NCBI GenBank assembly: GCA_002683655.1
Contig: NYTS01000031.1
Span: 7,849 to 64,054 of the forward strand
DNA from: Deltaproteobacteria bacterium
GTDB taxonomy: Bacteria; SAR324; NAC60-12
DNA: 56,206 nt
Direction: 5' to 3'
The stretch's first letter is position 1. Every line of letters starts with the position of its first letter. The notes beneath the pieces are model-generated. The model was not told the DNA's origin. It did no database searches and was given only the letters and a program-made list of their open reading frames with translations. The position numbers were made by a program, and so were the translations under genes. This document shows, one piece after another, positions 40,544-42,232 of this stretch.

Positions 40544-41152
40544 TCATCTTTCTTTTTGGCAGTATCCGTAACACCAGAATCCTAATCGCATGAATTCTGC
40601 GGCTAATAAGGGTACAAACAAAATCAGTGCCTGAAGATTCGATGACTTTTCATTCAGAAATAAGTGAATTGACGTCAAAACCACTGCAAAATAGATGAGA
40701 CGATGGATGTTTTTCCAATGATTCGCACCGAGTTTTCTGACCATTGCATTGCTACTGGTCAGGGCTAATATCAAAAGGATTAGGAAGGCTAGGAACCCTG
40801 TGAGTAAGTAGACTCTATGAAGATCTTTCCACAAAATCTCCCACTCAGGATTATCAAGTACGTGCAATGTAAAATGCAGAGCCGCATAGAAGGCCGATGC
40901 TAGCCCAATACTTCTTCGATGGGATTGAAGCCGCTTGATCCAACTAAAACCACTCCGCTTCCCAAGCCAAATTCTTAACGGAGAAAGCCATAAAATACCC
41001 ACTAAAAAATAAGCAGCCCAGTCTCCTGTTGCATGAACAAGATACTCTACAGGGTTTGCGCTCTCAGTAACTTGAGTTCCTATCCAAATTAATGGTAAGA
41101 GGCAGGCAACCCAAAAGAATTTATTGGTTGTTCGCGATGCTTTGGATGACAA
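40544..41152 (-). CDS. msrQ: MsrQ (YedZ) heme-binding membrane subunit
   Basis: The 202-residue membrane protein with about six helices belongs to the ferric-reductase-like family. Histidines placed as heme ligands are seen in FYAALHFTLHVLD, ANHWKNIHRLIYF and LTSIHLFLNEK, with GDWAAYFLVGILWLSPLRIWLG near the start. MsrQ supplies electrons from the quinone pool to the molybdopterin enzyme MsrP, which repairs oxidised methionine in the periplasm. msrP is not adjacent. The preceding noncoding region contains the folded element described separately. Confidence 0.87.
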   Translation of the reverse strand: MSSKASRTTNKFFWVACLLPLIWIGTQVTESANPVEYLVHATGDWAAYFLVGILWLSPLRIWLGKRSGFSWIKRLQSHRRSIGLASAFYAALHFTLHVLDNPEWEILWKDLHRVYLLTGFLAFLILLILALTSSNAMVRKLGANHWKNIHRLIYFAVVLTSIHLFLNEKSSNLQALILFVPLLAAEFMRLGFWCYGYCQKER

Positions 41153-41259
41153 ATCACGAGTTAAGCATGTATTATTAGATCAGGATTGCAGATTAATGCG
41201 CAGATTTAGAATTTGCCTTGACTCACTCTGAATGCCTGGTTAATTTTTTTAAGCCTTCA

Positions 41260-41278
41260 AACTTGTTTCAAACAAGTT
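41260..41278. other. short hairpin adjoining the nested structure
   Basis: AACTTGTT (41260-41267) and AACAAGTT (41271-41278) pair perfectly around a 3-base loop. It stands five bases from the larger element and has the same short-loop style. It is not followed by a run of T on the minus strand. Confidence 0.5.
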
Positions 41279-41282
41279 CGTT

Positions 41283-41335
41283 GACCTAGGGAGGAGTTGG
41301 TAGCCTCCAATAGTTGGGGGCTACAGTCCTAGGTC
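41283..41335. other. nested inverted-repeat element (possible structured RNA)
   Basis: The outer arms GACCTAGG (41283-41290) and CCTAGGTC (41328-41335) are perfectly complementary. Inside, GTAGCCTCCAA (41300-41310) pairs with TTGGGGGCTAC (41314-41324) over 11 positions with one G-U type mismatch and a 3-base loop. Nine unpaired bases on one side and three on the other give an internal loop. It lies in the 198-bp gap between msrQ and an unknown gene, both on minus. The compact cruciform suits a REP-like repeat, a 3'-end RNA structure or a small RNA; no family is recognised. Confidence 0.6.
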
Positions 41336-41350
41336 GAATCATATTTAAAA

Positions 41351-42232
41351 TTACTCCCCTGCCTTCATCCAATCTGCTAGATCATCCCTGAGCCCCTCCA
41401 GAGTACTTGCTTTTAGCGGCGCATCTAAAGTTAGCCTCAAAAACTCTTCCTCCCGATTCCACTGATCTACATCTCCTTGGTGAGCAAAAACGACGATCTC
41501 ATCAGTATCCACAATGCCCACACTGACACCTGACGCTCCGATCTGAGTCCACAACAGAGTATCCTCAACTTTTTGTAGTTCACCCGTGCTTTCTTGAACT
41601 AGTTGGAGTACTTGAATCAATGTCTGGTCACGTGTCGCTGCCTCCAATGAATCCAAAGCTTCTCTGATTTGTTTGCGAGATGCTTCTAAATCTATCTCAT
41701 CAGAAAGATGGGCACTCCACAACTCTTGTGCTCCTCCCGCAGAAGCATATCGGAGAGTTAGCCAAGCCTGCTCTAACCCTGCAAGACTTCGAATATCTTC
41801 AAACTGAACAAGAATATCCAATACCCTTTCTATACCGTAATCCAAAGTCTCTAACTCCTTGCGCCAGACCCCTTGGCGTTCAGTTGCCTCAAAGTTTTGC
41901 TCAGCCTTAAATAAGCCAAATAACTGCCGAAATCTGTCTCTTTGAAAGTGTCTCAAACCGAATTGATAAGTCTCACCTTCATGTAGTTCTATCAAAAGGT
42001 TTTTGACAGATTCAGCTTCTTCTTCTTTAACATGAGTCTGGCATGCCTCCCAGTGCTCTTCTGGCTTATAATGATGCTCCATGTATTCTGGGGTTGAGAT
42101 TCGAAACATAGGAGATGCTTTAGGATCACTACCAGAAGGTACAATCCAACCCTGCTGGTACATTATCTTAAGCAGAGCCCTCTCAACTGCAGCGAGTTGT
42201 TCTGTACTTAATTCGAAAATGGATTGTGCCAT
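41351..42232 (-). CDS. conserved-looking protein of unknown function
   Basis: I do not recognise this 293-residue acidic cytosolic protein. It has no signal peptide, membrane helix or metal motif. The N-terminal 50 residues (FELSTEQLAAVERALLKIMYQQGWIV) look like a helical or winged-helix pair, the middle is predicted helical with charged repeats, and the C-terminal third has a beta-like SGVSVGIVDTDEIVVFAHQGD segment followed by a helical tail. It is monocistronic with the folded element downstream and a 12-bp palindrome 33 bases upstream of the ATG. Confidence 0.7.
   Translation of the reverse strand: MAQSIFELSTEQLAAVERALLKIMYQQGWIVPSGSDPKASPMFRISTPEYMEHHYKPEEHWEACQTHVKEEEAESVKNLLIELHEGETYQFGLRHFQRDRFRQLFGLFKAEQNFEATERQGVWRKELETLDYGIERVLDILVQFEDIRSLAGLEQAWLTLRYASAGGAQELWSAHLSDEIDLEASRKQIREALDSLEAATRDQTLIQVLQLVQESTGELQKVEDTLLWTQIGASGVSVGIVDTDEIVVFAHQGDVDQWNREEEFLRLTLDAPLKASTLEGLRDDLADWMKAGE

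Follow-up and report, generated by a model that had tools for sequence, protein, structure and literature searches.

A conserved, single-copy two-hairpin element beside a genus-restricted SAR324 gene: a probable small RNA or unusual gene-end hairpin

The window analysed here is a 56,206-nucleotide stretch of contig NYTS01000031.1 from an uncultured SAR324 bacterium, whose genome assembly comprises 3.15 Mb in 109 contigs and is 81% complete. Within it, two genes of the - strand, P0001 and an msrQ-like gene, are separated by an intergenic gap of 198 bp that contains a two-hairpin element. The element spans positions 41260-41337 and consists of an 8-bp hairpin and, 2-4 nt further on, a compound hairpin in which an inner stem is nested within an outer one. 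The arms and coordinates given for it in a preliminary description were right when verified in the sequence. The features of the locus are as follows:

40544-41152, - strand: gene for an MsrQ-like heme-binding membrane subunit with a Ferric_reduct domain, which does not reach the MsrQ equivalog cut-off; distance to the element 107 nt
41218-41246, + strand: candidate weak promoter, TTGACT-17-TAATTT, below the scanner threshold and not evidence of transcription
41253-41259, + strand: invariant 5' leader GCCTTCA, from the alignment, with transient pairing in prefix folds
41260-41278, + strand: hairpin 1, 8 bp, AACTTGTT-TCA-AACAAGTT, loop UCA, from arms and fold
41281-41291, + strand: 5' arm of the outer stem (8 perfect and 3 flanking pairs), from arms, fold and alignment pairing
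41283-41290/41328-41335, + strand: the 8 perfect pairs of the outer stem, GACCTAGG/CCTAGGTC, from the arms
41292-41299, + strand: longer side of the internal loop, which is asymmetric (AGGAGUUG/A), with 1 variable base among five species
41300-41324, + strand: inner stem, 11 bp, GTAGCCTCCAA-TAG-TTGGGGGCTAC, 3-nt loop UAG, one U-G pair
41327-41337, + strand: 3' arm of the outer stem, from arms, fold and alignment pairing
41351-42232, - strand: P0001, 293 aa, genus-restricted, function unassigned; stop 13 nt from the element

On the + strand, the outer stem grows from 8 to 11 pairs by means of G-U and U-A pairs. The preliminary description had reported two perfect hairpins, one of 8 bp and one compound; both are present, but one T/G position interrupts the perfect pairing of the 11-bp inner stem. 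This position, which is the same in every species, forms a U-G wobble on the + strand and an A-C mismatch on the - strand, so that only in + strand RNA can the inner stem pair throughout its length. The internal loop is asymmetric, with its sizes corrected from 9 and 3 bases to 8-9 nt and 2-3 nt.

P0001 was found only in the genus that carries the element, where it is 92-96% identical among five species. Searches of Pfam, NCBIfam and PDB with it gave nothing, its best PHROG match was insignificant (E=0.23), and its AlphaFold model, with a mean pLDDT of 43, was set aside. The msrQ-like gene has no adjacent msrP; the molybdopterin oxidoreductase domain PF00174 is encoded elsewhere in the genome, on contigs C21 and C98. 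Several other genera of the family have a gene of ~320-340 aa directly before msrQ.

To compare the structure with chance, we folded native and shuffled sequences. The whole element folded at -32.9 kcal/mol on the + strand and the compound hairpin at -32.1 kcal/mol (z = -4.8), a value reached by 0 of 200 dinucleotide shuffles and 0 of 20,000 mononucleotide shuffles. The compound hairpin is the strongest 60-nt fold on the + strand of the window, by a margin of ~7 kcal/mol. Among 98,048 strand-windows covering both strands of 259 kb of the same genome, the element ranked second overall and first among intergenic windows, the sole stronger window of this sample lying inside a predicted gene. These results uphold the earlier claim that the structure is beyond chance.

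Variation was counted in the four genomes with the whole locus. Only 5 of the 78 columns of the element vary, fewer than in the adjoining intergenic DNA (20/107; p=0.017), the next intergenic region (71/191; p=8e-8) and the third codon positions of P0001 (85/294; p=1e-5). Third codon positions of the other flanking gene vary at 43/203, and across the intergenic flanks and the third codon positions 19-37% of sites vary. In its variation the element is comparable to positions 1 and 2 of the P0001 codons (41/588). Because it has fewer variable columns than its surroundings, the element, judged by sequence comparison, is under some constraint. Among relatives, the 5' leader and the internal loop hardly vary, and the loops are conserved in sequence as much as the stems. 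Across the alignment, 99.3% of cells are paired, rising to 100% in hairpin 1, where a single A-to-G change in the most divergent species (G025) gives U-G. The sequences are very similar, and four one-sided pair-preserving changes were seen; compensatory double changes were absent from these closely similar genus homologs.

Both blastn and a covariance model found one copy in the genome; a further weak covariance-model match (E=0.57) came from the opposite strand of this copy, which it overlaps. The element occurs at the same locus in five of the six genomes of the genus. MAGs of close relatives, UBA6967 among them, were deposited as unclassified 'Deltaproteobacteria'. The sixth genome, 68% complete, had no match to the element, P0001, msrQ or the TPR gene. 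Two matches were found in one genome (G026), and because the msrQ flank lies on one contig and the P0001 flank on another, we read them as one locus divided in assembly. These contigs (L004 and L006), which meet at the element, overlap by ~180 bases with several differences, a pattern suggestive of strain variation in the assembled sequences.

Run over the 52 phylum genomes searched, the covariance model found no divergent homolog outside the genus, the 46 other genomes giving no match in a limited first look with stricter filters. Inspection of the equivalent positions beside msrQ or the TPR gene brought out no similar compound hairpin in other genera; in a second genus, the TPR gene immediately precedes another gene. 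Phages and viral contigs yielded no match and plasmids a single spurious one of 36 nt outside the element, and a phage or plasmid origin was rejected for lack of any relevant match. The preliminary suggestion of a mobile REP-like repeat was not borne out either: REP or MITE-like repeats exist as multiple dispersed copies, and the element, found once in the genome by both searches and not at all in phages or viral contigs, is therefore not REP-like. With 0 covariance-model matches in Rfam 15 for 41100-41500 at E up to 10, a known RNA family was also rejected; at the Rfam gathering score the whole window contains two tRNAs and nothing else. Of the papers found that mention both SAR324 and small RNAs, none treats the subject, to judge from titles and abstracts.

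Two kinds of evidence on the strand were considered, the energy of the fold and the direction of substitutions. The compound hairpin folds at -24.9 kcal/mol on the - strand versus -32.1 on the +. Since a strand difference this large was seen in 41% of strong-fold windows of the same genome, it is not diagnostic. In G025, all three stem substitutions are A-to-G on the + strand and keep their pairs as G-U; its + strand folds at -30.7 kcal/mol with the structure unchanged, and its - strand at -19.6 kcal/mol into a different structure. One change shared by G023 and G027, from U-G to U-A, does not discriminate between strands, and one near a contig end in G026b runs in the opposite direction, against the + strand. 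The direction of wobble substitutions, over this handful of events, is suggestive and weakly favours a + strand RNA.

Scanning for signals gave no convincing promoter or terminator on the + strand. A 10/12 promoter match lies at 41146-41175, at the start of msrQ. No terminator-like site with the stem and U-run of a canonical intrinsic terminator was found on either strand in 41100-41460, and the T-run already reported as missing is indeed absent after the hairpins on both strands. In the 20 kb of the genome that was scanned, T-run terminators were no commoner than in shuffles. Upstream of the element, TTGACTCAC (41218-41226) is invariant in five species and contains the palindrome TGACTCA; it could belong to a promoter or a regulator site.

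Taken together, the locus holds a real, constrained, single-copy structured element that probably acts as RNA, and this is probably either a small RNA or an unusual hairpin at the end of a gene, in line with the two other readings of the preliminary description, a small RNA and an unusual 3' UTR element. Our tentative first choice is a genus-restricted structured RNA of ~80-100 nt on the + strand, running towards the 3' end of P0001 and antisense to it; such an RNA is plausible and would be ordinary in kind. The element would then be transcribed with + as the functional strand, and might use its exposed internal loop, which contains GGAGGAG, to work as a small RNA, either stand-alone or cis-antisense. 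More speculatively, in modelled folds the GGAGG of this loop could pair with CCUUC of the leader, a pairing that appeared transiently and only in folds of truncated prefixes. That the element represents a new small-RNA family of this uncultured lineage, antisense to the P0001 3' end, in which CCUUC/GGAGG pairing makes a switchable or pseudoknotted regulator, seems to us unlikely. A CsrA sponge was considered and rejected: a CsrA gene is present in the genome, but the element has a single GGA-rich loop.

On position alone, the natural reading is that the hairpins form the 3' end of the P0001 mRNA on the - strand, as a U-tract-less terminator or stability element ending or protecting the transcript before msrQ, and we hold this possible at nearly the weight given to a small RNA. 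A survey of 13 genomes by Gupta and Pal (PMC8355165) reports that most terminator hairpins lie no further than 20 nt from stops, that two-thirds are clustered and that poly-U is often missing; the element, with two hairpins a few nt apart, begins 13 nt past the P0001 stop, inside the limit of about 20 nt in the definition used there. In a sample of the same genome, z fell below -2 in 11 of 79 post-stop regions versus 1 of 72 regions upstream of starts, the element's locus having the lowest z, and the lack of any excess of T-run terminators over chance in the scanned stretch fits the same reading. However, antisense folds after stops were nearly as enriched (10% versus 14% sense), so the strand signal of this enrichment is weak. 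The weaker - strand fold, its different refolding in G025 and the three substitutions there that disrupt - strand pairs while + strand pairs survive all count against a 3' end of P0001, as does the conservation of loops. Elsewhere in the genome (L068, 8971-9030 of contig C1), a post-stop hairpin GAGCAGG...CCTGCTC followed by AGTTTCTG folds at -29.3 kcal/mol. Perfect 8-bp inverted arms, the AvrII palindrome CCTAGG and the conserved position would also suit an inverted-repeat site for protein binding or recombination, working as DNA or as a cruciform; this is improbable, given that G025 loses the symmetry of the arms in DNA (CCTGGGTC) yet keeps the RNA pairing, that the element is single copy and that no recombinase is among the flanking genes examined. 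Still less probable is that a repeat of mobile or imported origin (REP, MITE or IS end) became fixed in the ancestor of the genus and survives as a functionless remnant. A genus-restricted element beside a genus-restricted gene would fit such a history, but each genome has one copy, variation lower than in neighbouring DNA implies selection, and phages, viral contigs and plasmids offered nothing beyond the spurious match.

If transcribed, the element would count as a small RNA not yet catalogued, in a lineage for which Rfam lacks this element. Should it prove to be a 3'-end hairpin instead, it would offer a strong case of U-tract-less termination or mRNA protection in a genome whose scanned stretch lacks T-run terminator enrichment. 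Under either reading the significance is modest, as a single locus of one genus is concerned.

Like the poly-U-less hairpin clusters of intrinsic terminators (PMC8355165), the element has two close hairpins within 20 nt of a stop and no U-tract; unlike them, its better-preserved fold is opposite to the gene strand, its loops are conserved in sequence and it is nested, with an asymmetric internal loop. It shares with REP/MITE palindromic repeats a compact, palindromic, intergenic form, but is single copy and without a shown link to a RAYT or transposase. Although the element showed no convincing promoter or terminator and matches no Rfam family, it resembles lineage-restricted bacterial intergenic small RNAs in being compact, conserved in both fold and sequence, and confined to close relatives.
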